Origin: Polytrichum commune
Taxonomy: Eukaryota; Streptophyta; Polytrichopsida; Polytrichales; Polytrichaceae
Assembly: GCA_950295325.1 (NCBI GenBank)
Contig: OX485806.1
Coordinates: forward strand, 122,001-186,000
Direction: 5' to 3'
Length of the DNA: 64,000 bases
Of the stretch, positions 22,898-45,254 are shown one piece after another. The notes below the pieces were generated by a model. That model did not search any database. It was not told the DNA's origin and saw only the letters and a program-made list of their open reading frames with translations. The position numbers and the translations under genes are program-made. Position 1 is the first letter of the stretch. Each line of letters opens with the position of its first letter.

Positions 22898-23371
22898 TTG
22901 TGAAAAGTAAAATTTTCAATACCGATACAATATGCGTTGTTGTACTTAACATCCCAAACCTCTAGAGACCCCAGTTGACATAGAGGTGGATTTGAAATAT
23001 TTAAACACAACCATGGATCTCTCACTTCATCATGGATTATTAATATGTGAAGGAGACATGTGTAGTCACATACATGTAGTGCATACGTCTTATAATAATT
23101 GGCCATGATATTTGAGGCTTGCTACATACAATATTCTTGTTGTGGAGAGATTCATGAAAGCATATGATAAATAAGGGAATGAAGAACATATGAGAAATGG
23201 AAGTTCTTGCAGGATGAACCTTCTCAACAAGTGATCATCTATTCGGGGGATAGACTTCCATCATTCCTTCCAACTGGCAGAATGGCTGGGTATCCTGCTA
23301 GAGACCAAGACCTGGTAGCAGAGGCAACCATTTCGAGGAAGGCAGAGTGCATTGAACACTATATTCGTTAA
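17630..23371 (+). pseudogene. TIR-NBS-LRR (TNL) immune receptor gene, two frameshifts
   Basis: Six exons: 17630-18118, 18415-19536, 19905-20219, 20414-20497, 21182-22132, 23213-23371; about 1039 aa if read through. Intracellular immune receptor class. Exon 1 is a TIR domain (YDVFINHRGPD; CLDEL with the Glu that is catalytic in TIR NADases). Exon 2 is NB-ARC: P-loop GMGGVGKTT, Walker B LVIVDDI, SRIVITSW, CDGLPLAL and RMHDVLRDMGR (MHD). Exons 3-5 are leucine-rich repeats (LxxLxxLxLxxC pattern), exon 4 being a single 28-codon unit. Exon 6 is a short tail without a known domain. Splice phases fit throughout, provided one extra base near 18001-18007 and one missing base near 18985-18993 are allowed for. 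These two single-base shifts are either real inactivation or assembly errors; motif preservation in all exons favours a recent change or an error. Intron 5 holds an (ATT)n run at about 22869-22898. Confidence 0.85.
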
Positions 23372-23500
23372 ATTGAGACTTTTTGGGCATTTTGAGACAT
23401 TCACATAAATAAGAACAAGGATAAATGGAACACATATAGGAAAAGTTGTAAGATGCGAACACTTTGAAGCAGGTGTTTAGACCAAGAACCCCATAAATAA

Positions 23501-23790
23501 CTCATATTTGTGATGGTTTAGGGTGGGCAATCCAAATCTTAGACCACATTTAAGGGGAAACCTTAAAACATTCATATTATTGCACACAAAATATTAGAGC
23601 TTGTATGAATATGGTTTAGGTAGGGCAATCCAAACCATAGATCTTATTGAAGGGTTAATATGTTAACCAATATAATATTGCATACAAAATATTCCAAACT
23701 CATATTTGTGATGGTTTAGGTAGGGCAATCCAAACCTTAGACCATATGGAAGGGGAAATCATGTCTAACTTGTATTATTGCAAAAAAAAA
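23501..23790. repeat. Tandem repeat, three ~100-bp units
   Basis: Units start near 23501, 23600 and 23700 and share ATATGGTTTAGGTAGGGCAA-TCCAAACC, CTTAGACCAT and TATTGCA(CA)ACAAAATA. The array lies 130 bp after the TNL stop codon, so it may be in its 3' UTR or downstream flank. Confidence 0.7.
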
Positions 23791-23902
23791 ACATACAAAG
23801 TGTGGCATGTAAAATGCATATCATGCTAACACCACACATGCATTGGATAGTGCGACCCAAAATGTTCTTGCCTATGGCCCAAAACCCTACGCCTACTATG
23901 GC

Positions 23903-25637: not shown

Positions 25638-25639
25638 CT

Positions 25640-26148
25640 GCGGATACGATCGAGAGAAAACGGTGGGCGACTTATGTCATGCTATGTCCAAACGAAGCAT
25701 TAAGGAAACGAGTGTTCTTGGTGCAAACACAAAACCAATTGATTCATTTTGGAGGGGGTGCAACAAGGGATACAAGAGAGACAAGAGCATACAAAATACA
25801 TTCAAACACAATATACAAGTATATAGGAGTCAAAAATGGTGATTGTATTGTATACAATGCTCTATGTACATTTTGATTGGGGGGAGCCGCGTTGAACGAT
25901 GCGTTCAAACTAGCCTACTTCTAAATCTAGGAAAATTTGAAGAGACGGGCCGCCGTGATGAAGACTTCGTCGCAAGCCGGGGTAGGTGGACGAACGAATG
26001 GTCGGGGGGATGTGGCGAAGGGCGCGAGTGCCGGGGGGGCGACGTGTCCGTGAGTTTAGGGTAGTTAGCGGACACGACCAAGGCAAGAAGACAAAGACCC
26101 ATGGAGTTTCGGTCGACCGACCCAAACTGAGTGGGGTCAGTGCATTAC
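25640..26148. other. Intron or intergenic gap in the minus-strand locus
   Basis: About 500 bp between the last methyltransferase-like exon and the phosphatase-like exon. It starts (minus strand) with GTAATG after GAG and ends with TCCGCAG, is T-rich near the acceptor and carries one palindrome at 26107-26126. It can be read as one intron, which would fuse the two proteins, or as a short intergenic space. Confidence 0.4.
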
Positions 26149-26499
26149 CTCGCCTTGGTCGTGCCTTGACGACGTTGATGCCGGCATCGCCTGCGCTGCC
26201 CCACCTCTGTCACCGCCGCCTCCGACGACGACGTCAGCTGCAACCTGCTCCTGCAAAGGCTAACTGTCAGGCCTTTGTCCCAACCCAACCTCCGCATGCG
26301 CATCATGCATTGGTTCATCGACTGGGTTAGGAGTAGAGGTATCACCAGGCCCTTGCGGGCCTTCAACGTCTAACATGCCCTCGTCCACCAGGGTCTGGTC
26401 AGGGACGGGGTTTGGGTCGGTCGACCCAAACCCTGCTGCTTGGCGAGCGTCGCTCTGGGACGCTGCAACGTCGGCACTGTTTGGGTCGGACGACCCAAA
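26107..26499. repeat. 20-bp palindromes (26107, 26411, 26480)
   Basis: Three copies of TTTGGGTCGNNCGACCCAAA: 26107-26126 (one mismatch), 26411-26430 and 26480-26499 (both perfect). The latter two fall in the open minus-strand frame and read FGSTDPN and FGSSDPN. At 26411 the palindrome extends to GGG...CCC on the flanks. Confidence 0.9.
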
Positions 26500-29400
26500 C
26501 ATGTGGGGGTCGTCCCGCTGGTGGTGTGGGGGCGAGAGGATGGGAGGCCGGAGCGGCGGGGGCGCCAACGAGCTGGACGCTCCAGGGACGCGCCAAAGGT
26601 TGGGGTCGTCCACCTGCTGGACGGGCGCGTAAGGACGGGCGTGCGGCTACAGCAACTGTGCGAAGCTGAAGGAATGCTGCAGCGTGGGCCGCGGGGCGAT
26701 ATCCTATGGCGGGAAGCCTGCGGGCAAGTGCGGGAATGAACTCGGGGGAGCCATCACCAATCCCTGCGCCAGCATGCCCTGGATCACTTGCGTGATGAGC
26801 TCCGCTTGGGACGGAGTTTGGGCCATCACCCTTTGTCGCTCCTGCTCCAACAGGAGAGCCCTCAACTCCGCCACTTCGTTGCGGACCGAGGGTTCCTCGG
26901 CGGCAGCCCTCTGCAGTCGCACACGCTGCTCCTCGTCTCGGAGCATTTTTGCGTTCGCCTCCTCCACGGTGAGGACCTCCGGTTTCACCCTCACATTCCC
27001 GGCGAACGCTCTGGGGGAGGCAGGATCCGACCTCAGCCTCTTGGCGAGTTCCATGTCGTCCTCATCCTCTGAGCTTATTGTGATTGTCTCCTCCACCGCA
27101 TAGTCCCCGTACAGCTTCTTCCCCTTCATCCTTCTCCGCTCCCTGAAGGTGGCCGTCGCGTCCCTCGAGTACATGTCCTTCGCGTCATCCACCGTCAACG
27201 CGGGCACCAGCCTGCTTTGCGGCGTGGCAGCCCGCATGGCCTTCTTCCGCTGAGGGGCCTCGGATTCTTGAGTGAATCCTGTTGCCCCTTCCTCCACCTC
27301 CCCCTCCACTTTCTCTGCTTCCTCCTCCTCCTCCTCCCCCCCCTCCTCCCCAACCTCGCCACCTGCTCCCATCGACGGATTGCCCGGATGCAACCCGATG
27401 AGCGACTCTGGCAATTGAACGGGGGCACGCATGGCGAATTCACCCGGGTTGATTCGCCTCGCCATATCCAAAGGATTCTCACCCCCCTCGACTATCTCTT
27501 CAACGTAGGATCCGGGTATCCAGTCAAGGATGTCCATTTTCTTGGCCAGTGCCTTCTGGGTCCTGTAAAATTGAACATCGGTATCCTCCACATAGGAGTA
27601 GATGTGCAACCCAGACATCTGCACAATCCAAATCAATAGTATTAGTATAAACTAATGAAGAGTAAGGAAAAATGACATCCAAAATAAAATAAGAATAGTT
27701 AGTTTGGATCGAGCGACCCAAACTGGGTATGCCCATAGTTTGGGTCACTCGACCCAAACTAGGGGCAAACATAGTTTGGATCGCTCGACCCAAACCGTCC
27801 GTATAGGGCTTTCAGGGTTCTTTGCTTAACATTGCTGCAAAAATCGGTTTGGATCCCCCGAAAACGTTGAAGATGCAGTCCCCTCTTTTGGTGAGGGTCC
27901 TCATCATCCGCAGGTAGAACTCCATGCGCAGCTCATCCGCGGGGTAGTTGGCGTACTTCGCCTCGTCATACAAGCTCCTGCTGGTACCCAACCCTTCTTG
28001 GACTTGGAAGAGCTTTTCCATCCTGGCTATAGGATGGTTGGGCACCTTAAGTAGATCAGCTTTGTACACGAAGTACAAGCACAACACGTTGACGATCTTC
28101 GTCTTCTTGTCTTTCAACGTGCTGTACGCCCCCTCCGCCGGTGCAGCAACGTAGTGAGATTTCGAGACGGCATACTCCGGCTGCAATTTGCGCACGATCT
28201 CGTAAACCTGCTCTGCCCTCCTGTCCTCGACAATCCAGAGCCAGACGTCGACCTCCCTGAATTTGGGGCTGGCGTAGTCCACGAACTTCGACAAGAAAGG
28301 ATCGTAAAAAGGGTTGCTCATAGTCCCCTCGAATGAGGCTCCAGGGATATTCCTGAAGTCTATCATTCCGAAGGGGAAGCGGTCCCCGGCTTTAGTCCTG
28401 ATCGCCTTCCTGGACTCAGAGCCCGACCAACCTTGGATCCTGAGAGGCTCGACGGTGACCATGTTGAATTGCGCATCGCCTTCGAAACTGACAATCTTCT
28501 TCTCCTTTATGAAGTTGGAGAAGGCCCGCGCTGAGTGTTCGGGAAGCACCCGGTTCCTCCCCCCCCTTCACGAGCTTGGATCTGAGGAAGTCGTCTCCCG
28601 CCTCCCTCATGAGTGCCGCCATGGACGCACTGGTGAACTTATATTCGGCTTTGAAGGCCCTCCAGTGCGCCTCGTCGACCTCTCCGTCCACGATGAGCTT
28701 CTTCTCAGGCACCAGCTTGTGCAGCTCTTGGACGATGGTCGTCTTCTTCTTCCTGTTCTCCGTCCATTCCTTCATGGTGTAGCATGAAGGGACGAAGATC
28801 TTGGGTTTGGTGAAGACGATCTTGGGGTGGACCCAGCATCTCTTCGCCGTCGTCTCCACGTGTAGGATGTGGGACGCCGCTTTTCCCATCTCTGTCTCGG
28901 AAAGACCTTGAAGCGCTCTGAAGAACTCCCTCACCAGAGGCTTCATTTGCTTGAAGTGCGTAGTCTGGTTGAAGAGCATGCCGGTGTCGGGGTCCATAAG
29001 GTCCCCCGTCTCGTGTTTTTCAAAAACACTCCTCCATTTTCCCCACACGGAGTCGGACACGGTGATCAAATATATTTCTCTTCGCAACTCGTTATACTTT
29101 TTTTGCTTGTGGCTAGCATTGTCTATCGAGGAGAATTTATTGATCATCTGATATTTGAAGTCCTGCACACGTAGCCAACAATTCATGTTAGACAACATCT
29201 CATGGAATAACAAATGTAATAGCAGTTTGGGTCGATCGACCCAAATTATAAACCTAGTAAAGACAACAAAGCCATGCAAGAGTTTGGGTCGAGCGACCCA
29301 AACTATGAATTTGTTGAAGACACTAAAACAATGAAAGAGTTTGGGTCGGTCGACCCAAACATACTCACCTCCCATTTGGGGTTCTTATCTTTAGCATTCT

Positions 29401-30694
29401 CCCTTTCCCTGGGAGGCCTGCCATAAAACTCCCACACCTCCCTCGAGGCCATGATGTTTCTGATCCACGATGCCTGATAGGCCCTCTTTTTGTTCTCCAT
29501 GTTGAAGAACCTGGAGATGTCGTTGAGGACCGTCTCGTTGTCCGACCAAACCACCAAAGCCTTCCAAACTTTTAGTTTCTCCTTCTGGTTGTTCGGGTCG
29601 TTCCACTCGGTCATCAGCTGGATTTTTTTTGATGCCTCCACACTGTGTTGCCCGTCAATCAACCAGAAGTCTCCTTTGGAGATTGTCGGCCACATATCAG
29701 GCGTCGGCATTCTCTTCAACCCTTGTGGCATGACAACAATCGTCTGCCTGTCGTCCTTGAACTGCCCGCCCAAGATTTGAGCGACCATCCAGTCGACGTA
29801 GGCGTCCTCTTTGGCTCGGACACATTTCTCGGGTGGCGCAAGGTGGCACTGCGCAATGTTGACCTCGAACTTGAAGTCCCTACCCATGAAGAAGCAGTGC
29901 AGGCATTTTGTTTCGAAGTTGGTGTTTATTTTTTGTATTTCGCCTGCATCCACCTCCTGGCCAGGCTTCGGCATCCGGAGCTCCGGGGAAACAGGCTCGT
30001 CAGTCATCACCGATGACTCTCTTCCCCTTTTGGAAGGGGTCGTTTGACGGCTTGTTGATGGCGTTGGCGTCTCGCTGTCAACCGGCGTTGTTGTAGTACT
30101 TGTCCGTCTCGACTCCACAGGGACCGCCCGCGGTTTCCTCACAGTTTGTGGTCTTGAGGACCCTGCGCCTTCTTCCGTCGTTGCCTTCCGCCTCACAGGC
30201 TGTTGTGTCTTGGGTTTGCTTTGCAGCGCCTTGTTTAGAACCGTGATGGCCTGTTTTAACTTCGTGAACCTGCTCGCAACCTTCGTGTTGGTTACACTGC
30301 CATCTATGAATATGGCCTCCGGTTGTATGGTTTCAGGGTCGACGCAGGTCTCCTTGGCGTACAGGGGGTCGAAGGGCTCGGAGAACTGGTGCATGAACAT
30401 GTGGACGTTCTGCACGGCGGAGTTATCCAGTATGACGTCTACATAGTCCCCGAGAGACTGGACAGACGCAACCTCCCATCCCGTCAGCGTTGCCCAGGTG
30501 TGCTGCTCGTGGGTCCCCACCTTCACCACGAATAGCAGCTTGAACATGGATGCCTTCACCACCTGAACGGACCATGCGAGAACGACGCCATCTTTTGGAA
30601 CGTAAGAATCGTCCTGTGGAGTTTCATATTCCTGCCAAAGGTGGTCTGGCGCGAGCATGAACCACCTTTCACCTGGTCTCTTTTTAGGGGCCAT
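26149..30694 (-). CDS. ParB/Srx-like plus DNA-methyltransferase-like protein
   Basis: Minus strand. Exon 1, 30694-29369 (442 codons; ATG follows a TTGCAG acceptor): an N-terminal unknown domain, a Ser/Thr/Pro linker, then a ParB/sulfiredoxin-like domain ending in GDFWLIDGQHSVEASKKI. Exon 2, 29162 to about 27828: a helical region, then NPFYDP and RGDCIFNVFGGSKPIFAAM, resembling motifs IV and I of N6/N4 DNA methyltransferases. Exon 3 from 27618 continues that fold (GLHIYSYVEDTD...FYRTQKALA), then an acidic stretch, a SIM-like TITISSEDEDD and a coiled coil. Reading on to the GTAATG donor at 26149, the frame is open except for three TAG codons (26704, 26647, 26260). A G8 run (28559-28566) gives a one-base shift, and the exon 2/3 junction is not clean. 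ParB-plus-methylase pairs are known in phage and bacteria. Either a mobile-element gene or an unstudied plant family, possibly decaying; the palindromes lie in its introns and promoter. Confidence 0.55.
27703..27794. repeat. Three palindromes at 36-bp spacing, intronic
   Basis: Copies start at 27703, 27739 and 27775 (each with zero to two mismatches). They fill most of the intron between the two methyltransferase-like exons. The 16-nt spacers are related to each other but unlike the spacers of the other arrays. Confidence 0.9.
29226..29359. repeat. Three palindromes at 57-bp spacing, intronic
   Basis: Perfect palindromes start at 29226 (centre AT), 29283 (AG) and 29340 (GT), exactly 57 bp apart, inside the 206-bp intron 29163-29368. 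The 37-nt spacers have diverged from each other while the palindromes have not changed outside the central dinucleotide. Confidence 0.92.
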
Positions 30695-30722
30695 CTGCAA
30701 CCCAAGAAATCGAAACTGTGAG

Positions 30723-31853
30723 TTTCGGTCGATCGACCCAAAGTATTGCAACGTGCATTTAACATTTGGAGGATTGACTCAAACATTATTTAATTTTCAA
30801 AGTCGTTTTAAAAGATCTTTTAGATTTTAAATTGTGGTTTAGGTGGTCACCCTGCAATGTTTGAGTCGAGCGACCCAAACATGATGAGGCTGCAAATTTA
30901 GGTAGTTTAACCCATTCATTTCAGAGTGCAATGTTTGGGTCGAACAACCCAAACATATTACTTAATTTTCAAAGTTCTTTTATATTTTACAATGTGTTTT
31001 AGTTCTTCTCCGTGTAATGTTTGGGTCGACCGACCGAAACATGTTAGGCTGTAAATTTAGGTAGCTCAACCCAATCATTTCAGACTGCATTGTTTGGATC
31101 GCATGACCCAAACATTTACTTCATTTTGAATTTTCTTTTATATTTTACAATGTGGTTTGTTCTTCTCCCTGTAATGTTTGGGTCGAGCGACCCAAACATG
31201 ATGAGGCTGCAAATTTAGGAAGCTCAACCCATTCATTTCAGACTGCAATGTTTGGGTCGAACGACCCAAACATGATGAGGCTGCAAATTTAGGAAGCTCA
31301 ACCCATTCATTTCAGACTGCAATGTTTGGATCGAACGACCCAAACATTTACTTCATTTTCAAAGTTCTTTTATATTTTACTATGTGGTTTGTTCTTCTCC
31401 CTGTAATGTTTGGGTCGAGCAACCCAAACATGATGAGGCTGCAAATTTAGGTAGCTCAACCCATTCATTTCAGACTGCAATGTTTGGGTCGAACGACCCA
31501 AACATTTACTTCATTTTCAAAGTTCTTTTATATTTTACAATGTGGTTTGTTCTTCTCCCTGTAATGTTTGGGTCGAGCGACCCAAACATGATGAGGCTGC
31601 AAATTTAGGAAGCTCAACCCATTCATTTCAGACTGCAATGTTATGGTCGAACGACCCAAACATTTACTTAATTTTCAAAGTTCTTTTATATTTTACAATG
31701 TGGTTTAGTTCTTCTCCCTGTAATGTTTGGGTCGAGCGACCCAAACATGTTAGGCTGCAAATTTAGGTACCTCAACCCAGTCATTTCAGTCTGCAATGTT
31801 TGGGTCGCTCGACCCAAACAAGACGCTGCAATGTTTGGGTCGAACGACCCAAA
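30723..31853. repeat. Palindrome array, ~158-bp units with two palindromes each
   Basis: After one copy at 30723-30742, fourteen palindromes start at 30860, 30934, 31020, 31093, 31177, 31251, 31325, 31409, 31483, 31567, 31641, 31726, 31799 and 31834. The spacing alternates 74 and about 84 bp, giving a 158-bp unit with two palindromes. Unit spacers include GATGAGGCTGCAAATTTAGG and AAGTTCTTTTATATTTTACA. Flanks add further pairing (ATG...CAT). The array starts about 30-165 bp upstream of the minus-strand ATG at 30694, so it is in the promoter or 5' leader. Confidence 0.93.
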
Positions 31854-34800
31854 CATTTAGTTCATTTTAGGCTGCAATTCAAATATTTATTATATTTTAA
31901 TATGAGTTTGGGTCGTCTCCCCAAACTACTGTGTTTCCATATGCATGTTTAATGCTTCGGCAACATATACAATGCTTATGCATTGTATATGTAACAGGAA
32001 CCTAAAGGGAATGATGCAAATTGTGTGCACTGATGCAAATTGCTTACCTTGTCTTTCAAACTCTTGAAAGCTGCTCTCACAATCTGCTTCTTACAACCAG
32101 ACTCAGAAACTCTGTTGTGGCACTAAAGAACAACTCTCACAAAGACCTAAGAAACACAATGAATCTCTCAAGCACCCTAAAACTTTCTCACAAACTCCCT
32201 AATTCTTGCAAACTCAGGCCTAATTTGAAAGACCTCTACCTTTCTATCACACTCGACCGTGCTCACTTCTACTCAACCTAAAATCACTCCATGCATGAAA
32301 TTTACAAAACAAGTAAGGAGTTCAACACAATAAACCGCTCCGAACTCACTCAAAGCTAACACTCTAGACCAAGAAGAGAGAATAACAAGAGGAAGACAAT
32401 AACAAGAGGAATAGAATGAGAGAAGAGGAGGAGAAGCATCAGAGAGGAGGACAGGAATGAAGGAGAAAGAAGAATGAAAGGAAGCGGCGCGACCAAGACA
32501 AAAGCAAAAGGTGCGAAAGGAAGCGCTTGGCGCGGCGCTATGGAAAGCGGCGGCGGCGTTTCCAAGAGCGGCGCTTGGCGCGGAGGAAGAGAGGAAGAAA
32601 AAGAGAGAAAGAAAAAAGAGGAGGGGAGAGAAGGAGAGAGCGGAAGGGGTCACCCTAAACCCTCGAATCCGGGCCATTAGATTGCGCCGGACCCATCAAC
32701 GGCTCAGAAGCCTCGCGGGCCAACACCCTGCCAGGTGTCGACACCTCCTTGGTTAAGGTGGTTGCCCGCGAGGCTTGTGGTGTTGGCACCTGCCACCCTA
32801 GGCAGATTGCCTTCCTGGTTGTCCTTGCCCCTAGGTGCGGGACATAGGAGGGCCGGCGCCTCTCTTGGCCGCCCGGCCCCGGCCTTCTAACCCGCTATTC
32901 ATTAGCGGCAATTCAATACCACTCAAAAACCTACGTGGACTAAGGTATTCCACAAAATTAACACCATCGCCAACTCATATTTTAATGGTGTTCAATTGAA
33001 TGATCACCCGTTGGAATTGATAACATCGTAGAATGTAGCCATTATCGTTTTGGTGTATGAATAATGTAATTTATGGAATCATATGAGAGTGTTACAAAGT
33101 CTAAGAGGAGTAAGTCATAATTATATTGCAATCCACAAAGGCAATTACACGGTGCAATAATATAAATATGGTAACCATTCACATGGTTAACAGTTTAGGA
33201 TTATGTATTGTAATTTATATGATGGTTGTTGGTAGAGGACAATGCTCTAGTCTATAATGGATACCCTAACAAGTAGCATTAGAGTGAACATTAATATATG
33301 TACTTAGAAGTTCACATTTGAAGTACATGGGAGAAACAAATGATTACAAATGTATCTACTGCAACCCCATGGAGTTCACATATCATATGAAGTCATTTAA
33401 ACATTCAATTTGATGTTTGATGATGCCTAAACCCTAAACCCTAAACCCTAAACAACACAAACCATAACTGGATGGCACATAGGTCAAATGACATGGGCCT
33501 TGGTGCTTGTAGTTTCCAATACAAATGTATAATGTCATCACAACATCCTAATTCACAAACGTGAAAGATGGATGTGTGGTTTTTCACGAATGAACGCACT
33601 AAAGGAAATAAATGATATTGTGCTCACAAGTAGGTGATACAATATTAACCTATAACCTTGTCACCTGGTAAGAAGAGCATAAGAACTAGATTATAATAGA
33701 TAGGATGTTGTTCATGTTAACATGTTATTTGGAATAGTGAAATATTATATATTAATTTAAGGTAGATTTCATGTTGTGAATGATATGAGGACATACCTTT
33801 TGAACTTTGCATGTTTTGCTCACACACATTGCTAGAGTTCAAGGGACTTCACGATAGGTTCAAACATCATTGAAACATTGAATGTGCCAAATGTCAATTT
33901 TGGTTTATGGTTCCATTAATGACTTCCACATAGGTACTAGGTTATTGTCACACTTGGAGCCTTGAGGATGAAGCAATATTGGGTGCACACATTACAACAC
34001 AACAGATGTTCTTTTAACTAGCGGAAATTGAAAGTTGGCCAAATTATTCAAGTTTGTCATGGCATTAATTATTTGTTTTCAAAATATAAGTCCTCATGTG
34101 AGAGTGTAAGTAATTGCATTAACTATTATATTTAGTGACTTTTAGTGACTTTTAGTATATGAAGTTTTGTAATACATGCACATCTTTTGTCAATATATTG
34201 TTTGAAATATACCATAATGTTTGACTACAAGTAGAGTAAAACCCCTTAATAGATATAATCTTACATATTGTCACAGGGTTATTGGTATTCAGTGTATGCG
34301 TTCATATGTAGTGTATCAAAATCTTTATATCCTTTTTAGTTATATGATAGTTAGTGTTTGATACACTTAAAACGAACGCATACACTTCCTATTACTAACC
34401 CTATGAGAGTAAGTAACATTAAATGTAAACTCAAACACTAAATATCCACTGTGGTGATATATGGAAGTTACATATAGGAATTTATTATTAGTAAGGATGT
34501 GAGAAAAAAATACAACAATGATAAAAGGAGAAAGGAGATGGCAATAGGGAAGGTGGTGGTGTATTCATGTATAAAACTAATTATGAAAGAGTTGAAGAAT
34601 AGTGTTGACCAAGTTAGGGTGGTAACAACTTTAAATAATATATGTTGAATTATTCATTTGATGGTTGGGGCAACGAAGAGCCAAGCTAAATATACATTGT
34701 CTATTATTGACAAGAAGCGGGAAATTGAGTCAGAAGGTTTGAATTAACGTCCAAAGGAGACCAGGTGGGAAAGGCATCCAAAGAGGATGCCCAAAGCGGA

Positions 34801-35032
34801 GGCGGGTAGTATAAAGAGCCCAACCCCCCCCAAATGCTGGTTCTTTCTTTCATGTCCCAATCTTGAGATTGCTGCAAGCTCTCTAAGTTGGAGCTGTAAT
34901 ACACGGTTTGTGTACGTTTTCATTCATGAGCAGCTAATTACAACAAATATCTACGAGTTCAGTTGTTCCAAATAGGTTATATATAGATTAATAGAGAATC
35001 ACCCGAATAAATAGGCGGATTTTGCGGAATTG
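31854..35032. other. Interval between the two palindrome arrays
   Basis: No gene recognised. It contains a purine-rich low-complexity block (about 32380-32650), a GC-rich inverted repeat (GCCTCGCGGGC at about 32711 pairing with GCCCGCGAGGC at about 32764-32774), and AT-rich DNA from 32900 to 34980. Open frames in the purine-rich block are low-complexity only. Confidence 0.4.
33425..33453. repeat. Interstitial telomere-like repeat
   Basis: Four consecutive plant-type telomere units (CCTAAACCCTAAACCCTAAA...). Too short for a telomere; probably an interstitial remnant or a telo-box cluster. Confidence 0.8.
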
Positions 35033-35991
35033 TTTGGGTCGGTCGACCCAAACCCAGCCTTACAGTGTGGGTGCTCTCTGTTGTGAGCCTGAACCCATCC
35101 TGCCTCAAGGTTTGGGTCGATCGACCCAAACCCAGCCCTACAGTGTGGGTGCTCACTGATGTGAGCCTGAACCCATCCTGCCTCAAGGTTTGGGTCGATC
35201 GACCCAAACCCAGCCCTACAGTGTGGGTGCTCATTGCTGTGAGCCTGAACCCATCCTGCCTCAAGGTTTGGGTCGATCGACCCAAACCCAGCCCTACAGT
35301 GTGGGTGCTCATTGCTGTGAGCCTGAACCCATCCTGCCTCAAGGTTTGGGTCGATCGACCCAAACCCAGCCCTACAGTGTGGGTGCTCACTGTTGTGAGC
35401 CTGAACCCATCCTGCCTCATGGTTTGGGTCGGTCGACCCAAACCCAGCCCTACAGTGTGGGTGCTCACTGTTGTGAGCCTGAACCCATCCTGCCAAAAGG
35501 TTTGGGTCGGTCGACCCAAACCCAGCCCTATAGTGTGGGTGCTCACTGTTGTGAGCCTGAACCCATCCTGCCAAAAGGTTTGGGTTGGTCGACCCAAACC
35601 CAACCCTACAGTGTGGGTGCTCACTGTTGTGAGCCTGAACCCATCCTGCCAAAAGGTTTGGGTCGGTCGACCCAAACCCAGCCCTAAAGTGTGGATGCTG
35701 TGTGTAGTGAGCCTGAATTCATCCTGCCTCGAGGTTTGGGTCGCTCGACCCAAACCCAGCCCTCTAAGTGTGGGTGTTGTCTTTAGTGAGCCTGAACCCA
35801 TCCTGCCAGAAGGTTTGGGTCGATCGACCCAAACCCAGCCCTCTAAGTGTGGGTGCTCTCTGGAGTGACTCTAAACCCATCCTGCCAAAAAGTTTGGGTC
35901 GCTCGACCCAAACCCAGCCCCCTAAGTATGGGTGCTCATTATCGTGACCTTAAACCCATCCTGCCAAAAGGTTTGGGTCGCTCGACCCAAA
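35033..35991. repeat. Palindrome array, 13 units of 78-79 bp
   Basis: Thirteen palindromes start at 35033, 35111, 35189, 35267, 35345, 35423, 35501, 35579, 35657, 35735, 35814, 35893 and 35972. The unit also contains a second hairpin, GCTCACTGTTGTGAGC, nested in TGGGT...ACCCA. Central dinucleotides are AT, GT or CT. Because 78 is a multiple of 3, several frames stay open on both strands, but these are not genes. The array ends about 215 bp before the ATG at 36206 and lies in the promoter or leader of the DUF7869-like gene. Confidence 0.95.
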
Positions 35992-36205
35992 CCCAGCCTC
36001 TAAGTGTGGATGGGATCTGGATGACAGTGTGGCCACTGGCCATCCAAAACCTTTACGAACCCAATGGCATATTAGTCATATGAACTTGTATGAGCACTGA
36101 GTATTTGCAATTTTGTTTATATATGATGGTTTTTGTGGTCTTCGATTTGAACCTACAATTTTTGTGATTTTTTGACAATGTTCAATGTTCATGTGTGTAG
36201 GCAGA

Positions 36206-39200
36206 ATGGATGGGTTTAGTGAAATTGGGGATTGGTCATCTGATGACATGGCCACTTGGCCATCTGCATCTGATGATGACTTAGACATTGTCGGGGAGGC
36301 TATTATGGCTGACAGTGCGGATGAAGATCATTTGGATTTACCTTCATCTTCCGTACCGCAGTGTCCCATTGTTGAATGTACGGGACTTTCAAGGGCTTCG
36401 TGGGTGAATTTGGAGGTGATACTTCTTAACGATAGTGGAGTTGTTGTGGCGGAGGGGATTTGCCGTAACACCCATCCGCAAGATTGCATTGATGAAAACC
36501 CGCTTGGCACCGAGGACGTTGGGGTTGTCATATTGGAGTCGGTCGTTCATTCCGAGGTGGATCCCACTCATAGGTTCTCCCTCCGCAGGTGGCCGTTGAG
36601 GAATGTCACAATTGATGGAGTTAGCTTGCGTGAACATGAGCAACGACACATGCAAATCGAAAAGGAGGTGCAATCAAACATGCGGCCGCGCAAGGGTCAA
36701 AGAAAGTACGATACATTGGCACGTCCTGCTCCGTCTGCAACTGATTGTAAACGTCAAAGGTTGCTCGGGGAGGAGTCCATTAGAGAAGTTGCCACAAAGG
36801 ATTGTTGTGTGCATCGTTGTTGCCAATTGTTTCCAAGGGATAAATTGAAGGCCATCCGCGAAGAAATGTGGCTTGGAGATTTCCGTCTAAGATCCACAAG
36901 AAAACTTGATGTCCATAGGGCGATACATGTGAATGGGATGGGTCGCAAGGTCATCACCATTGAAAGCATGGACGTGTGTTGTAAGGCATGGTACACCATT
37001 CACGGTGTGTCGAAAGCGGACTTTTATCGACAAGCTGCTTATGCCAAGGAAGGCCACCGGTCCCGTCACCATGGTAATGTGGGTTTAAAGAAGCCTAGGG
37101 AAGCAACAAGGCAAGCAACGGCCACTCTAGCAACCATCATTGTCCCCCTTGCCGATGCAATGCCGCACAAAACACGCACGCTCACAACCGGTGAAAAGGT
37201 TGTGGAGAAAGTTCTTCCCACAGGCACAAAATGGAAAGACATATTGTTGGACGTGAATGCAGTTGGCGAGAAGATTGGGTTGGAGCCAATTTCATTGTCA
37301 AAATTGAGTGCAATTAAGAAACAAAACTTTAGCGAATACATTACAAAAAGACGAGGGGACAAATTTGCCAGGTGCTCTAATTGCGAGAAGTTGAAGCGCC
37401 TCCGGGATGCACACACGATGGGTACCGAGTCGTATGCAGCGCATCAATTGAACTATTTCAAGCACGTAAACATGCAAGAGGCACACCGTAATGATTATTA
37501 CACAAATAGAGCTTTGTCCATCTCCAGGCCCTTGGAGGTTCTTACGGTCATCCATGACAAAATGGACCATGCCAAAACAGCCTCCCCATGTTTTGCAAAT
37601 CGAATCAAGGCCACGGATGGGTTTTTTAAGTTGCCTGTATCGGTTACAGGTGAACTTCGAAACAATGTCATGACATACCCTAAATGTTGTGGTTTTTTAT
37701 TCCGTGATGTACTTGAGAACATGGATTCACTCAAAATGGTTTAATTATATCTAATCACGTTGGGTTGGCATTACAGGAATGATTGCACATGGACACGGTG
37801 ATGTCAAGTTTGCTCATTATGCTCTTGATTTGTATCCAGCGGATTCAAACCACACAATAGGGTCATTTGCAAGGCTTTTACGTGATTTAGAGAAACCGCC
37901 AGCCTATTCTTCAGGATTGTTATTTGAAAACACGGGTTCAACACCTCTATATGAAGCGTTGTTGGATGGAAAAGATGTATGCTTTCATTCGTTGCCAGAG
38001 CCACCCAGTGATCCCGTGATTGCCAAAAAGTTGCCTCCCACTTTGCGTGTCCAATTGGACAATTGTGCCAAGGACAATAAAAGTAGATATGTTTTTGCAT
38101 ATTGGTCGTTGTTGGTTGCGAAAGGCATTTTCAAGGAGGTTTTTGTGTCCTTCCTATTGGTAGGCCACACGCACGATGATATTGATGCATCTTTTGGGCG
38201 GTGGAGCATGAAGTTGCGGGAGGAGGATTTCCCTACAATCCCGTTATTGATGAAGTCGTACATGGATTTGGATAACGTTCCGGTCATCCCCCATATGATT
38301 GAGGAGGTGCCAAACTTCAAGGCATTTATAGAACCTTATATTCGAAGTGGAGCTCACCGATTGATCGGGCATACGAAGGCACAACAATTCCGCTTCTATA
38401 TGCGTGACGATGGTGTCCCGGCCATGCAATACAAGTTGTTGTGCACGACACAAGACTGGAGCCCGCCGGAGGGTCTTCTTGTGTGGCGCGTGGATGCGGA
38501 TGGAAAGACCATGTTACCGGATGGGGAGCCTAGGCCTTGCAAGCCAATAGCCATGAAGAATTTGGAGGATATTTTGAAAGGTATATCAGGCTTCATACAA
38601 TATTGGGAGAGTTTGAAAATAGCGGATGTTGGCGGATCATGTTGGCATCGTTATGGGAGTTGGATACATTATTGGACCCGTGTTCGTGCCGCCTTGGCAG
38701 ACCTCCACCAAGATAGCCCTCATACTTTGAGGCATGGATTTTGGCCACAAACACGAGTCGATGTACAAGCTTCGGAGCCTAGTCTTTTGGGAAATGGAGA
38801 GGTTCGAGAGGAGTTTGATGTGGACGACCATTACGTGGGGCCTGCTAGTAGTCGTCCCCCACCATCTTTCCGCATTGCAGTGGATTGTCATGAAGGTTAT
38901 ATGCTCATTTTACGTCCTGGAGACGAGACATATGCAAAGCCAGTGTGGGTGGCAAGAGCTTTGTCCAAACCCAATTTTGTAACTTCCAGCCCTCATTTTC
39001 GACAGATACAAGTGGAGTACTATCGACCGACAGCAAGGAATGAAGATGTGATTCGGCATTATACAGGCTGGGATACAAACCCTAACTTTCGGTGGAAGAT
39101 GGATTCTGAGCACGGTCCATCTTGGGTAGATACAGATTCCATATTCATAGCATGGAAACCACGGAAAAACCATAGTGGATCAGTGTCCATCCCTCAAAAG

Positions 39201-39263
39201 TACATAACTTTTGCAAAAGACAACCTTGCTCGGATTGCACAAGAAGCAACCCACGTTGAATGA
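36206..39263 (+). CDS. DUF7869-like, DDE-transposase-like protein
   Basis: Two exons, 36206-37649 and 37777-39263, with a clean 127-bp GT-AG intron (phase 1); about 976 aa, no frame break. The N-terminus is acidic (DDD/EDE clusters). The middle part has a Cys pattern (DCCVHRCCQLF; RCSNCEKLKRLRD). The core has three acidic sites in RNase-H-like order: IHDKMDHAKT, LRVQLDNCAKDNK and LLVGHTHDDIDASFGRWS. I recognise this as the DUF7869 family (name from memory), widespread in plants, oomycetes and animals and thought to be transposon-related; its activity is not established to my knowledge. The start is placed after the GTGTAG acceptor-like site; an in-frame ATG also exists at 36185. The C-terminal 250 residues (WDTNPNFRWKM, YITFAKDNLARI) are not assigned. 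Its 5' flank is the 78-bp palindrome array. Confidence 0.78.
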
Positions 39264-39802
39264 GAAGTTGGTAGGATTGTGTTAGCATGATTATAGTTTA
39301 ATACGTAATTATAGCAATATAAATTACACATATGTGTGCTCTTCAAAATTGGGGCAGAGTTTGGGTAGAACTTACGAATACTATATTGTTTGGAGTTGGA
39401 TGAATATCCATTTACTATATTTCAAAAAAAAATGAAGTTCATCTTATTATTATGTTTGGGACTATATTGTCGAATGAAGAAATATGCATTTATTACATGC
39501 ACTTTGTATGTTGCAATGTCTATATTCTATTGTGCATGCTAATAATAGAAATCAGTTTATATGTTTTTTGGGTGAAACTTGTTTGGAGTGCTCTACCCAA
39601 TGTGTTTTTGTTGATGAAGTTGGTGTCGAGTGCTCTACCATATGTGCTTATGTCCGCACATCATAGATTTGGGATATTAGAACATATAATATAATTGAGA
39701 TTGTTGACAATATAGTTTCGGGCCTCTTCAAGTTCTTTGATCCATATATTAATTTGAGACTAGAGAAAGTCTCAATTTAATGAATATAGTGTTATTGTCA
39801 TC
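39264..39802. other. Spacer between the DUF7869-like gene and the acidic ORF
   Basis: AT-rich, no coding motif. It may include the 3' UTR of the upstream gene and the promoter of the next. Confidence 0.4.
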
Positions 39803-40396
39803 ATGTGCTGCTCAACATTCACGTACAAAAACCGCATGGCATGTCCACCTAGCATGAGGTTGTGTGTATATAGGGGTGGCGAGTTGGCTGAGGAATCTGA
39901 ATTTTCTCCCAAATATCCTAAAGATTTGACAAGTCAGCGGCTTACATATTGCGTTACATTGAGGAGGAAGCACCGTGTTGTGAAGGCAATACAACCCGGA
40001 GACAGACTTCTTCTGTTCCTTAAACGGGGTGGGTTATCACCATTGGCTATCTCTACGTCGGAGGCAAATGTTTGTGTTGTGTATAATGGAGATGGGCACT
40101 TGCTTTTGGAGGTAAACTCGGAGTTGTTAAGCGAGGATGCATCCCGAGAATTGGAAAAGCAATTTGGAGAGTTGGTATTGGTGGACGAAAATGAATGCGA
40201 AAATCAGCATGAAAGTGAAGACGAAAGTGAAGACAAAAGTGAAGGCGAAAGTGAAGACGAAAGTGAGGACGAAAGTGAGGACGGAAGTGAAGACGAAAAT
40301 GAAGGCGAAAATGGCGGAGAATCGAATAGAGAAAGAGGTGTATGTAGCACTTTGGGTTTCACTTTTCCAACAACAAAAAGAAAATCTGGAAATTAG
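39803..40396 (+). CDS. Small acidic protein of unknown function
   Basis: Single open frame of 197 codons (ATG 39803; a second ATG at 39836 would give 186 aa). Residues 1-130 look globular (MRLCVYRGGELAEESEF, VKAIQPGDRLLLFLKRGG). Then comes a run of ESEDESEDKSEGESEDE-type repeats of about 45 residues, ending in a basic TTKRKSGN tail that could be a nuclear signal. I do not recognise the family. It sits 540 bp downstream of the DUF7869-like gene on the same strand and may belong to the same element; acidic tails of this kind suggest chromatin or DNA-binding partners, which is inference only. Confidence 0.55.
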   Translation: MCCSTFTYKNRMACPPSMRLCVYRGGELAEESEFSPKYPKDLTSQRLTYCVTLRRKHRVVKAIQPGDRLLLFLKRGGLSPLAISTSEANVCVVYNGDGHLLLEVNSELLSEDASRELEKQFGELVLVDENECENQHESEDESEDKSEGESEDESEDESEDGSEDENEGENGGESNRERGVCSTLGFTFPTTKRKSGN

Positions 40397-41784
40397 ATGA
40401 GGCGCACTTCCAACAAATAATTAGAAGAAATTTATCTGCAATATTTTGTTGACAGATGTGGGCATGCTATTTCAAAATCTTTCCGACCATTGCTTATTTT
40501 TATTTTTTACACTCAAATAACACGATATTAAGTTCAATAACCTCATCATACATCATTCAAAAAATATATATGAGAGAAAACCTCTTTTTGACTTGCATAC
40601 GAGTATTGGATAGCCCAAAGGAGCACAATTTGAAGATGTTAGAGTACGCTAGAGTTCATTTAGGAACATGTGGTTTTTTTCTATTGTTTTGTTTGCATGT
40701 TCAATTATTTTAACCTATTATCCTTCCCAAACTAATAATAATCACAAATTTAGAGTTGACCAGAATATTTAGAGTCTTTAGGGGTATATACCTATAGAGC
40801 CTGCAGGTTCAATGTTGTTTCTTCGTTGCTCATCCCCCCCAAAAGGAAATGAATACCTGCATAAATACATACGGTAAATTATGTTTCACTTTTCAGTCGG
40901 CTCCCCCTTACACTTTCACTTTTTAAAATTGAGATCAATATTTATTTATTTTATTTTATTTTAAGCAACCAAAATAAGCACAATGATTATCCCACTTAGT
41001 GCATGTTACTATTCGAGGTTATGCATTATAATAAAGTCTTATTGAGGAGTTCAATAGGTTGTTCAGACATTATAGAACATGAATAACTTTGTGTGGTGAA
41101 TTATTACACTCTCATTAAACAATAACTCTAAATAATAACACACACTAATTGGGAAAATCAATGTAGTGTATTTGTGAAACGAAACACAACCATTTAAATT
41201 TTTTGAAGGAGCCAAATCAAGTGAGGTTGATGAGGTGTGCTTGAACTTGCATACCAAGGACAACCACTCAGATAGAGCAAAGCATAGTCCGGACAGTGTA
41301 GGGGGGCCACTTCTTCTAGTGCGGGCATGGGGACATCCAAACCTTAAAAAATAAAATAAAAATCCTTGTGTAAGCTTGGCATATTCATAAAGTGGTGTAT
41401 GTATGTGAGTACTATAGAGGGCTCTCTATTCCAACGAAAAAATAATAACTTCTTTCCTCAAATTTTGCCGCGTGTCAATCCTTCATTGGTTAACAACCCT
41501 CTTGAATCCCATGTGGAGTCTACGTTGTGGCATTGGTAAAGTTGAAATAGAGCGACATGTATTGGATGATGGTCATTGTGTGGATTTGGCCACAATTTTA
41601 ACATAACTTTCTAGTAGAAAATTAGTGTGGGCAACGTTATTTTATTTTTCTAGATGACTAATGTGGGCGATTAGTTTATTTTGTGCTACTTTTGTCCTAC
41701 AAGTAACATTTGTTGTGTTGGTTAGAAGTCTTCATGACAACTATCCATCAATTTAGAGGAATATTTGGAATATACCTAAACTCA
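40397..41784. other. AT-rich interval, nothing recognised
   Basis: No gene, RNA or clear repeat seen. Short AT-rich stretches only. Confidence 0.4.
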
Positions 41785-42890
41785 ATAAAGAATAAACCGA
41801 AAGATCAAGACATGTCACCGGTTGGACTTAGAAACACTAGAATTTTGACATAACATTTCAAGACCTTGCATGTGTAGAAATAAGAGCACACCATCAATAG
41901 TGAAGATTGCAAAATTTATTGCAGACGATGAGGTAGACGTGTCCAATTCGGTTACTCATCTCCATCAAACACCTATATTTAAGTGGTATGTGGTTAGGTG
42001 TGGCTTCAAGAATGAACATAACATAAAAGACACGTGTTTTATAAGAGATTGGATTACATGCTCAAAATGTTTTAACCCATTCTAGACTCGATAGTGAACA
42101 TAGTTGGGGGAACCTATATGATCATTTAATGAGCATGAGAATCTTCACTTTGATAATGAGTAAGATATTCATATGGGCTCCAAAGATTATGGGAAAGTGG
42201 CTACGGCCCTGACTTGGATTTGCTAACCATCTCATACTAATCACATGTTTTTTTCTTTTTTTCTTTTTTCTTTTTTGAGACAAAAGGCCAACACAGCCAA
42301 CGCCAAAATGAATACTAATCGCATGTTCTCATATACTAGGAGAAGTGGGATAATCGGAAACAATGACCGTTTAAGACCCATCTACATTAAGACAAAAGAT
42401 AACTGCTGAAGTGCAAAACTAGCCTTTGAGAAAATAGTCCAGAAATTCACATGTAGTCGCCTTCACCAAGGGTCACCCACACTCTCCCATTATTCCCCTC
42501 TTTTCGGCAAAAGACTATGGTGACAATTCACCCTTTCGATTTGGATAAGATTCTCATTGTTCGTGATGTAAGCATGCCTATTTATGCTACTTATCTTAAT
42601 CAGACACCTATATTGGAGTGGTGTATGGTCAGGCGTGGATTTAAGAACTGACATCAAAAAGGGCATCATGTGTTTAAAGAGGGTTGAACTATGTGCTCAA
42701 AAAATGTTAACCATTCTAGTTCATTAGTCAACATCATGGCCGGGGTGACCTATATTGATCGTTTAACAAATATCCACTTTGATAATGAATAAGATACTCA
42801 TACGAGCTCCGGAAACTATGAGGAAAAAATGGCTACAACCTCAATTTGGATTTGCTTAGATCATTTTATACTATTCAAGTGTTTAATGTT
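41785..42890. repeat. Two diverged copies of the dispersed repeat
   Basis: Copies 41965-42250 and 42597-42880 share CACCTATATT(T/G)AAGTGGTAT, ATGTGCTCAAAA-TGTT, CATTCTAG, TTTGATAATGA(G/A)TAAGAT, CTCATA(C/T)G and CAATTTGGATTTGCT. A preceding block at 41785-41850 (GAAAGATCAAGACATGTCAC, TTGGACTTAGAAACACTAG) recurs near 60985 and 62590. Copies are 60-75% similar by eye; no coding frame. Confidence 0.6.
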
Positions 42891-44340
42891 CTACGAGAAG
42901 TGGGGAACTTTAAAACATGTGAGTATACTACAAGTTGTGTGGAATGATTTGAGCACCAATGTACATTTATTGTGTGGGCTAGACCTCTCAGACCTCTCAA
43001 CCTTTTCTAATGATTTGAAACCTCTAGCTCAACACCAACTTCAAGGTATCTCTTTCAAACCTCTCAACCTCAAACAACAAACTTGCAACCCTTCTTCTGG
43101 ACCTCTCAACTTCAAACAACAAATTTGAACCTTTCTCTCCCAAACTTGTGAACCTTAAACAAATGAACCTCAAACCCCTCTCTCTCATATATTTGAACCT
43201 TAAAAACCGCACCTCAAACCCCTCTGCATGAAATCTCCCATTCAAATAACCCCAAACCCCCTCCTTCTCTCCCAATCTTTGCTCTCTCAATGTCAATTTC
43301 TCCCTCAATATGTTTTGATCTTTACTCTTTCCTCGTTTGCACTCTCTTGCTCTTGCTCTTGCTTTCGCCCTCCCTCAAGCAGTGAAGTTGACCAACGCTT
43401 CATGGAGGTGGAGGGGAGCGAAAGAGGAAGGGAGAGAAAATGAAGAAGGGTTTTGGTTGGGTTGGTGAAATACAATCAGTCGGAACATGCGCCTGTGGGA
43501 ATAAGGGTCCACGGCAACAAACGCCACCCCCTTGTTTAAAAATGTATAACCTTGCATAAGCCACCTAACCTTAGGTGGGGTAAGGTATGTTGGAGGTATT
43601 CGATTCATGTTTTATATTCTTCAACTTCTATGATGTTTAAACTTAGTATTAAAATGCCCAAGGGTGAACCTTTCATTAAAAGCCATAATCATGTGTGTTT
43701 GCAATATATAGTATATAAACCCAAGCCTATTCAAAAATATTTTTGTAAATTTAAGTGGTAAATGTACAATTTCAATTATCAAATCAAAAGTGATAATATG
43801 TGTACCAAAAAAAATGTACATTTATGTTTAATCATATGTATAAAAATCTAGTTGTGAACATTGATTAACCCCTATCCTTTGTAAAAAGCAAGACCCTACT
43901 AAATCTTATCAATAAAGTTGTCGGAGACTTCTTCATCCCCCATACATAGCTTATAAGCACCGGAATTTGCAATAGAGTTATATGCCATCATAGGTACCAA
44001 ATTTGCAATTATTTTTGTAAGTCTACCATCAAATGATCAATGAGATCAATGAGATCCCCACTTGTTGTTGGGTCATTCTTGATACCAACATAAGCCAATG
44101 ATTTACAAAACGTATGTTTGCCTCCCAACTCTAATTATAATATTAAACTAATTATTCACTACGGTTCACAAATTTTTTGCCAATGGGTGGATATGAGCAT
44201 ATGTTATAATAAAGGAGCGGAATTTTCCAAAAGCATCTTTGAAGTCACTACTCTACTGAAACCCTATCTAAAAGGCATCCAATGAGGAAGCTCACAAATC
44301 CTAGATGGAAGAGTAGACTCCACGAACTAGTATAAATGTT
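42891..44340. other. Non-coding interval with pyrimidine-rich patch
   Basis: CTCAACCTCAAACAACAAAC-like short repeats occur at about 43050-43200 (ACCTCTCAACNTCAAACAAC repeated) and a C/T-rich patch at 43230-43380. No gene recognised. Confidence 0.4.
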
Positions 44341-44441
44341 TGCCCCCCCCCCTTTCACTAAGAGTTGTCTACCCTAGTTTGTGTACACCCTATGTTCATG
44401 CCATGCAATCAATCATATTTTGCGCTGCATTTCACATAAGG

Positions 44442-44764
44442 TTTGGGTTGACCAACCCAAACTTGCTAACCCTATTCAGTGTACTAATAGAGTTTGCGTT
44501 GGTGACCCTAAACCTAGGGTCCTTTGCACGGGATCATGTTTGGGTCAACCGAGCCAAACTCTTCTTCATATCTTACAAAAGATCTACATGGGTTTGGGAC
44601 AACCGACCCAAACCTCCTAACCCCAATCAATGCAATACTAGAGTTTGCATTGGTGACCTCAAACATGGGTGCCCTTCCTATGGGTTAAAGTTTGGGTCGA
44701 CTGATGCAAACTCTTTGGCATATCCTATTAAAGGTTTACATGGGTTTGGGCCTGGTCACCCAAA
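44442..44764. repeat. Decayed palindrome array, ~152-bp units
   Basis: Five degenerate palindromes start at 44442 (TTTGGGTTGACCAACCCAAA), 44539, 44593, 44691 and 44745. The spacing alternates about 97 and 54 bp, so the unit is about 152 bp with two palindromes, as in the 31-kb array but with different spacers. Several mismatches are C-to-T or G-to-A changes. Confidence 0.8.
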
Positions 44765-45254
44765 CTTGCTAATTTTGGTACCAATAGTAATCATCACTAC
44801 TTCTGGTGGCCATTAGGCAGTCAATAAGCAACCATTGGGTAGTTATTTTTAAGTTATGAGTATACATTTTGGTGGCAAGGTGACCACAACGTTTACTTTT
44901 GGAGCACATCCGTTGTGGGACGGGGTTAGTCATTGAGGAGGGTAGCAATTACCATAAAACAAAATGCATATGAAACTTTAAATCCTAAAATTCAAAACAT
45001 TGCCATCATCCACCTCCCTCCTCTCTATTGTTGTTATTATTCCTCCATTCCCTCTTGCCCTTGCTACACATGATCTTGGTGCTCTTTGTCATGTTGGTCA
45101 ATGTGTTGGTGCTCTTTGACGTAGTCTTAGTCAAATTGGCCATCTTCAAGGTGATTTCTCTTCATCCTTTTCAATTTGTGTTCGTTTCGTTCCTTGCATT
45201 TGATTTTGGAGGTCAAATACGTGTTGATGTCAAAAATGTGGAATTTGATTTTTT

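Follow-up and report, generated by a model that had tools for sequence, protein, structure and literature searches.

A palindromic repeat in Polytrichum commune as a candidate self-identifying binding site of DNA transposons

In Polytrichum commune, a palindrome with nearly fixed arms and a variable 2-bp core occurs in arrays that are internal parts of a multi-copy DNA transposon, where they are grouped around one gene. The analyzed stretch of DNA (hereafter, the window) comprises 64,000 bp of contig OX485806.1, positions 122,001 to 186,000 of the forward strand (GenBank assembly GCA_950295325.1), and contains one copy of this element, here called family 1. The initial annotation described the palindromes, and the transposon that contains them had remained unseen. 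On balance, we favor the explanation that the palindrome is a binding site by which the transposon identifies itself. Its likeliest binder would be the accessory protein encoded by the surrounded gene, a protein with ParB-like and methyltransferase-like motifs that may act similarly to VANC, a component of the Arabidopsis VANC/VANDAL anti-silencing system (PMC5735166; PMC10398659).

Abundance and geometry of the palindrome

Scanning the window with TTTGGGTCGNNCGACCCAAA at up to 3 mismatches yields 42 matches, in agreement with the approximately 42 copies reported initially, compared with a mean of 0.03 in dinucleotide shuffles; none of 100 shuffles reaches 42. In the whole 408-Mb genome (64 contigs), the exact palindrome is found at 9,731 sites and the reversed-pattern control at 0. 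The extended motif is 22 bp long, GTTTGGGTCG-NN-CGACCCAAAC, with both core positions variable. The preceding G is present in 180 and the following C in 170 of 186 sites collected at up to 3 mismatches from the window (up to 40 kb) and the six regions that were fetched first.

The 2-bp core geometry is strict. Arms separated by 0 or 1 bp are found at 2 sites genome-wide, and arms separated by 3-12 bp at 172 sites. All 50 listed sites of the latter type correspond to a different sequence, the dispersed 29-bp palindrome TTTGGGTCGAGCAAAATGCTCGACCCAAA, which shares the arms but has an 11-bp spacer, or to its near variant; these places look like one repeat family. Among the 2-bp cores, the GC variant accounts for 280 sites in the genome.

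Of the five tandem arrays proposed previously, those with periods of 36, 57, 158, and 78 bp proved to be real arrays. The fifth, with a period of about 152 bp, is also real, but it is degenerate and lies outside the transposon. Because of this, and because the first match in the window (position 23842, 3 mismatches) is unconvincing, the coherent set consists of 37 sites located between positions 26107 and 35991, of which 24 are exact.

The family-1 transposon and the placement of sites

The limits of the element were established by comparison with three other copies, c1 (C1:608-634 kb), c2 (C1:1172-1198 kb), and c5 (C1:2112-2130 kb). Homology to these copies begins at about 23355 and ends at about 39795, within a few bases of the element ends (Table 1). 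All four copies that were read to both ends are flanked by 4-bp target duplications: ATTG, ACTT, ATAA, and AAGG. Target-site duplications of 4 bp are a feature of the Sola superfamily, and family 1 shares it. The only transposase domain found is DUF7869 (PF25273), of which there is no mention in the literature searched. The genome contains at least 85 matches to the family-1 transposase and at least 87 matches to exon 1 of the gene on the opposite strand.

Table 1. Coordinates of the family-1 transposon, its genes and palindromic sites, and a related array in the window
Feature	Position	Strand	Evidence and remarks
Target-site duplication ATTG, left copy	23351..23354		Sequence
Family-1 DNA transposon, 16,439 bp, containing the palindrome arrays	23355..39793		Homology limits against c1, c2, and c5; terminal inverted repeats; target duplications
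Left terminal inverted repeat AACACTATATTCGTTAAATTGAGACTTT, 28 bp	23355..23382	+	27/28 bases match the right end
Phosphatase gene of the NIF/FCP (NLI/FCP) type, two open reading frames here	24829..25676	-	PF03031, E-values 6e-9 and 3e-5
Single palindrome about 10 bp beyond the stop codon	26107..26126	-	Site scan, copies
Exon 3, coding sequence including palindromes 26411 and 26480, translated as FGS-x-DPN	26137..27618	-	Frame broken here; 498-aa open reading frame in c2
Intron 2, 3 palindromes (27703, 27739, 27775), 36-bp spacing	27619..27829	-	Donor altered here, kept in the other three aligned copies
Exon 2, with GDCIFNVFGGSKP, methyltransferase-like by eye	27830..29162	-	Frame broken near 28.57 kb here, open in c1
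Intron 1, 3 palindromes (29226, 29283, 29340), 57-bp spacing	29163..29368	-	Site scan, copy alignment
Exon 1, 442 aa, free of palindromes, with motif FWLIDGQHSVEAS, ParB-like by eye	29369..30694	-	Open reading frame; splice sites kept in four copies
Single palindrome directly 5' of the start codon	30723..30742	-	Variant TTTCGGTCG in 4/4 aligned copies
Array of 158-bp period, 14 palindromes, between divergent genes	30860..31853		Site scan, tandem periods
Array of 78-bp period preceding the transposase gene, 13 palindromes	35033..35991		Site scan; spacings of about 56-66 bp at the corresponding place in c2 and c5
Transposase gene, two open reading frames	36176..39263	+	DUF7869 (PF25273) in the second frame, 37755-39263, E-value 9.6e-43
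Right terminal inverted repeat, 28 bp	39766..39793	-	One mismatch to the left end
Target-site duplication ATTG, right copy	39794..39797		Sequence
Degenerate array of about 152-bp period, related palindromes	44441..44765		Outside the 16.4-kb element; 4 listed sites, 2-3 mismatches each

The accessory gene on the opposite strand was modeled as three exons, based on open reading frames (ORFs) and conserved splice sites. Its copy in the window is decayed, with the donor of intron 2 altered and the frames broken, and its exons are open in other copies. The two intergenic arrays contain 27 of the 37 sites; the remaining ones are distributed between intron 1 (three sites), intron 2 (three), exon 3 (two), and the positions before the start and after the stop codon (one each). 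No palindrome from this set falls into exon 1, exon 2, the transposase gene, or the phosphatase gene. The distances from the sites to the ends of the element are at least 2.7 kb on one side and at least 3.8 kb on the other.

Several further observations concern the structure of the element. A 98-bp tandem repeat near the left end (23499-23758) includes an imperfect palindrome, GGTTTAGGTAGGGCAATCCAAACC, which is possibly a subterminal transposase site. The frames of the phosphatase gene are longer in c1 and c2, and in c1 they form a single ORF of 281 aa. Copy c2 (reverse complement L004-L006, near 13829) contains an additional left transposon end, followed by GGTTTAGGTAGGACGACCCAAACA, and this end likely belongs to a nested relative.

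Conservation of the arms and selection on the gene

The initial annotation had suggested that the palindrome itself is kept, rather than the unit of an array. Comparison of diverged copies supports this: relative to c2 and c5, the arms are at least 95% identical, whereas the identity of the flanks drops to 50-65%. Of the two outcomes that the initial annotation regarded as refuting its view, a genome-wide frequency at chance level and arms as variable as the spacers, neither was seen. For five noncoding sites, the arms of the window are identical at 95/100 and 96/100 positions to those of c2 and c5, respectively, and the flanks at 110/170 and 118/189. The two sites in exon 3 give 39/40 and 40/40 for the arms versus 44/80 and 43/80 for the flanks, and the site before the start codon gives 19/20 and 19/20 versus 23/36 and 18/36. 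In the close copy c1, the arms of the noncoding sites match at 97/100 positions and the flanks at 157/200. These counts cover eight of ten window sites, as site 27775 has no partner in c2 and site 29226 has none in c2 and c5, and they are biased toward high arm identity by the tendency of MAFFT to align palindrome with palindrome. The arms of the exon-3 sites are kept among copies that are about 70-90% alike.

At the same time, the spacing of the sites changes between lineages. In intron 1 it is 57 bp in the window, 48-49 and 46 bp in c2 and c5, and 40 bp in L056-L059, and L055 has a single site. The intron 1 palindrome persists even in diverged copies whose synonymous sites are saturated or nearly so, in four of five as arrays of a different period. 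Similarly, the array upstream of the transposase gene has a period of 78 bp in the window and about 56-66 bp in c2 and c5.

The accessory gene of family 1 is under strong purifying selection. The ratio of nonsynonymous to synonymous substitution rates (dN/dS) in exon 1 is 0.06 between L055 and L056, at dS of 1.5. Synonymous divergence of the window copy from L055, L056, and L058 is past saturation, and the near-identical pair L056-L058 (dN/dS of 1.09 at dS of 0.007) is uninformative.

The same palindrome in an unrelated transposon family

We placed 148 distinct sites out of the 9,731 exact ones, using 100 listed exact sites and 50 listed GC-core sites, two of which are in both lists. All 148 are located inside two unrelated transposon families or, for at most 39 of them, within 25 kb of such elements. 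The 100 exact sites fall into six fetched regions, of which each of the two families accounts for three. Among the 50 GC-core sites, 39 were placed by distance, being within 25 kb of a listed element copy, a proximity shared by 2.7% of the length of the contigs concerned; each of the 11 others aligns to family 1 when the palindromes are masked. The sampling was directed, as regions c1-c6 were chosen for holding the palindrome and L031-L039 for one exact site each.

In family 2 (c3, c4, and c6), the same palindrome forms 32-bp arrays, which occupy what looks like an intron as well as the space between divergent genes. Its transposase-like protein has a weak match to the SWIM zinc finger (E-value 0.076), and tblastn showed no relation between the transposases of families 1 and 2. 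The divergent family-2 gene on the other side of the array, as read in c6 and c4, encodes VPLCRM...FIWDGNHRFFAW and, further downstream, GRVVDLTCSTGASILATRACGRHLLAFEGDN; it also includes FIWDGNHR. Judged by eye, FIWDGNHRFFAW resembles a ParB/Srx-type motif and GRVVDLTCSTGASILATRACGRHLLAFEGDN an N6/N4-methyltransferase-type motif. The corresponding candidates in family 1, also by eye, are DFWLIDGQHSVEAS and GDCIFNVFGGSKP, respectively.

Family 2 also has a palindrome of its own, TGTGCGT-NN-ACGCACA. Allowing up to 2 mismatches, c6 has 20 such sites, most of which belong to a 64-bp array (L012 7597-9370), and the motif is present in seven of eight family-2 relatives at 50-75% identity. It is absent from the window, c1, c2, and c5.

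At L009 5450-7725 and L007 741-3016, a sequence of about 2,276 bp bounded by TG...CA has been inserted, the two copies being 99.9% identical. One of them splits a palindrome and is flanked by the 5-bp duplication ACGAC. The insertion looks like a recent solo long terminal repeat.

Palindrome types and protein lineages in families 3 and 4

Genes that are 40-45% identical to the one of family 2 make up families 3 and 4, of which 20 loci were read. Recurrent palindromes with a 2-bp core and other arms are present at most of these loci, in a perfect form at 12 and in an imperfect form at four of the 20. The perfect types are (i) GGTTTCGG-GA-CCGAAACC, also found as GGGTTCGG-GA-CCGAACCC; (ii) GGCCTCGG-AT-CCGAGGCC; (iii) TGTTTCGG-GC-CCGAAACA; and (iv) TGTCTCGG-TC-CCGAGACA, with TG or GG as other cores; an imperfect type is GGCATCCC-AG-GGGGTGCC. 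Arm changes between related types are symmetric. The palindrome of the window was observed in none of the 20 loci at up to 3 mismatches. In 27 upstream stretches, we counted 47 perfect palindromes with 8-bp arms and a 2-bp core, compared with 0.45 expected.

The type of palindrome follows the lineage of the protein. When the types are mapped onto a 20-protein tree, they require seven changes, which is the minimum, whereas shuffled labels require 13.5 on average. The branch uniting three proteins whose loci bear the window palindrome has support of only 83/74. The labels were assigned by hand, with L046, which has one unrelated palindrome, entered as "none," and L030 and the family-4 proteins labeled by their imperfect palindromes. 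The tree match demonstrates lineage specificity and not, by itself, co-evolution.

A possible mechanism of self-recognition

If the palindrome is indeed a self-identifying site, a dimer of the accessory protein would bind GTTTGGGTCGNNCGACCCAAAC with one subunit on each 9-10-bp arm across the 2-bp gap. Arrays in the promoter and introns would then concentrate the protein on its own element, and the bound protein could mark or de-silence the copies of the element, keeping the genes accessible or expressed, by analogy with Arabidopsis VANC. The data show the sites with their fixed geometry, conservation, and location in the elements, the purifying selection on the gene, and the agreement between site type and protein lineage. 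We infer three things: that the accessory protein is the binder, that its domains are true ParB and methyltransferase domains, and that binding serves to counteract silencing or to mark the DNA. A dimeric protein had been suggested from the outset, and this part of the early prediction agrees with the strict 2-bp core and with the symmetric arm changes in the relatives. A recombinase, proposed as the other option, was rejected: no recombinase gene was recognized among the scanned ORFs, and the 37 sites are internal.

A broader possibility, which we put forward tentatively and with less confidence than the role of the palindrome in family 1, is a eukaryotic code for self-recognition, carried by transposons and comparable to ParB-parS. 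In such a code, each protein lineage would read its own 2-bp-core palindrome, kept in arrays throughout its element, the two would diversify together, and some elements would borrow the code of another. If true, this would allow numerous lineages of elements to share a single plant genome.

A number of observations weigh against the main interpretation, in which the accessory protein binds the palindrome. Some of them concern the sites. In comparison with c1, the exon-3 sites (arms 40/40, flanks 75/80) and the site before the start codon (20/20 and 24/24) are not kept better than their flanks. The window palindrome is absent from all eight family-2 relatives at 50-75% identity (1.8 kb upstream, up to 3 mismatches). 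Because of this absence, the c6 lineage probably gained the palindrome late, and there the site may serve the protein of family 1; it would be either a borrowed site or a site matched by a change in the family's own protein. In a family-3 subclade of four loci, three are without a perfect palindrome with a 2-bp core, and the fourth has a single unrelated one. Finally, matching trees do not prove co-evolution, because the site and the gene are physically linked.

Other observations in the same direction concern the protein. Searches of Pfam, NCBIfam, and PDB, as well as phmmer, gave no match to ParB or methyltransferase sequence profiles. Exon 1 has no significant sequence match in Pfam, NCBIfam, or PDB, and the PHROGs search returned nothing useful. 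The best Pfam match of the domain from families 2-4 is Phage_tube_C (E-value 5.4e-4, four of 20 members), followed by DUF1015, a domain kin to ParB (E-value 0.0093, one of 20 members). No N6/N4 DNA methyltransferase family from Pfam was matched, and the match of a METTL13 chain to one family-3 piece (E-value 0.28) is not significant. The catalytic motif of N6/N4 methyltransferases is (D/N/S)PP(Y/F/W). At this position, by eye, family 3 has DIPE, family 2 has QFPD, and family 1 has no clear counterpart. As the active-site motif looks degenerate, modification may not be the function of the protein.

Structural comparison gave a weak fold match in favor of ParB. The AlphaFold model of the family-3 domain is poor, with a predicted local distance difference test (pLDDT) score of 52; an earlier model from six sequences had 33. 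Foldseek with the weak model of pLDDT 52 ranked Noc first, and nine of the next 11 hits were sulfiredoxins, but all these E-values are at least 0.4 and none is significant. In VIA-align, two ParBs, KorB, and Noc have Z-scores of 2.0-2.3 over 62-69 aligned residues, whereas unrelated proteins, which make up most of the results, reach 4.0. Profile comparison by hhalign revealed no significant link between family 1 and families 2-4. When the domain cores alone were compared, shuffles scored as high in 12/200 cases locally and 79/200 globally. Thus, the names ParB and methyltransferase are leads from motif, topology, and precedent rather than established membership. In addition, the commonest eukaryotic form of the ParB fold is described as sulfiredoxin (PMC12704722).

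Alternative explanations

The palindrome could instead be bound by a host transcription factor, with several transposon families having independently acquired it for use in a promoter or an intronic enhancer. This would explain the identical palindrome with different spacers in two families with unrelated transposases, as well as the highest density of sites between divergent genes. We nevertheless consider a host factor unlikely, since every one of the 148 sites sampled from the 9,731 is in these elements or no farther than 25 kb from one, the latter applying to at most 39, and since the palindromes of related elements differ, following the lineage of the element protein.

Less likely still is binding by another product of the element, either the transposase or the part encoded by exon 3, for the purpose of transposition, as with the subterminal repeats of CACTA elements. 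Such a product is encoded and carried together with the sites, and 13 of them are directly upstream of the transposase gene. However, the 37 sites are remote from both ends, family 2 has the same site and an unrelated transposase, and a separate subterminal repeat, the one of 98 bp, is present. Subterminal transposase sites were rejected by the internal position.

The palindromes could also form RNA hairpins, with a stem of 9-10 bp and a GNNC loop, that act in introns or untranslated regions in splicing or in the production of small RNA. Six of the 37 sites are intronic, and RNA with perfect inverted repeats is in general able to fold. This explanation is improbable, as a hairpin would tolerate paired changes, whereas the arm sequence stays the same even between copies whose synonymous sites are saturated; moreover, 27 of the 37 sites are in intergenic arrays, and a hairpin has no need of a strict 2-bp core, larger loops being sufficient.

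The least probable explanation is that the sites are functionless and persist by chance through slippage and gene conversion; arrays do expand and are homogenized, but the arms, which in c2 and c5 are not as diverged as the spacers, stay fixed while the spacers diverge or are replaced, and this includes single sites and the coding exon. An origin by chance or by simple tandem duplication was rejected by the shuffles, the genome count, and the arm and flank identities.

Comparison with known systems

The organization proposed for family 1, with a self-recognizing accessory protein, has a precedent in the Ectocarpus transposon Sola1-1_Ec32, whose accessory gene, opposite to the transposase gene, encodes ParB-like and N4/N6 DNA-methyltransferase-like parts; according to its authors, accessory proteins of this kind may bind to the transposon that encodes them and modify it (PMC12477816). 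Both are large DNA transposons with an accessory gene on the opposite strand and ParB- and methyltransferase-like parts. The differences are that no binding site is described for Sola1-1_Ec32, the main text of the article not containing "palindrom" (PMC12477816), whereas candidate sites are visible here; and that family 1 resides in a plant genome, has weaker domain calls, and has a methyltransferase active site that looks degenerate. We found no report of binding sites for the ParB/methyltransferase proteins of algal transposons. The candidate sites described here have an exact sequence and thousands of copies, and the plant genome contains several protein-site pairs.

VANDAL elements have a Mutator-type transposase and duplications of about 9 bp, whereas family 1 has a DUF7869 transposase and 4-bp duplications. 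VANC motifs form tandem repeats in the introns of the accessory gene and upstream of the transposase gene, the sets of motifs differ between related families, and a motif can also be present in an unrelated transposon, AT9TSD1 (PMC5735166). In family 1 and its relatives, motif repeats are likewise found in introns and upstream regions, vary between related families, and include one motif common to an unrelated element. This makes VANC the closest tested parallel to the proposed mechanism. The motifs given for VANC are 8-9 bp long and have no spacer, and "palindrom" does not occur in the text of the article (PMC5735166). The initial annotation held that no plant element with this core had been described; the core was indeed not found in a limited search of the literature, but the VANC repeats are a close analogue that had been described. 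Nothing recognizable as VANC appeared in the Pfam scans, no VANC sequence being compared directly. If the self-recognition proposed for family 1 is true, it would, next to VANC, be a second and mechanistically different sequence-specific system of this kind in transposons, and one from which programmable DNA-binding modules could be drawn.

In bacteria, the palindromic sites of ParB-parS, Noc, and KorB are read by a dimer. The sites of the transposons are likewise palindromic, and a dimer is proposed here as well. The ParB fold is often found on mobile elements, and its fusions to predicted N6_N4 DNA methyltransferases are common in phages (PMC12704722). The differences from the bacterial systems are that the domain is not recognized by sequence profiles and that there are tens of sites per element.

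CACTA/EnSpm transposons have a 3-bp duplication flanking CACTA and subterminal arrays of motifs. Family 1 resembles them in having many short motifs per transposon, and its inverted repeat reads AACACTA. Unlike CACTA elements, it has 4-bp duplications, and its 37 motifs are internal rather than subterminal; thus, it was not assigned to CACTA.

Other features of the window

A LINE-like (long interspersed nuclear element) sequence is located at 50803-55494 on the forward strand, with matches to reverse transcriptase (E-value 1e-30) and RNase H (E-value 2e-15). Between these two domains, there is a match to PF12237 (PCIF1) with an E-value of 3.4e-7, just under the Pfam cut-off; PCIF1 is an RNA cap N6-adenosine methyltransferase. 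On the other side of the transposon, an ORF with leucine-rich repeats at 21182-22261 resembles plant disease-resistance proteins.

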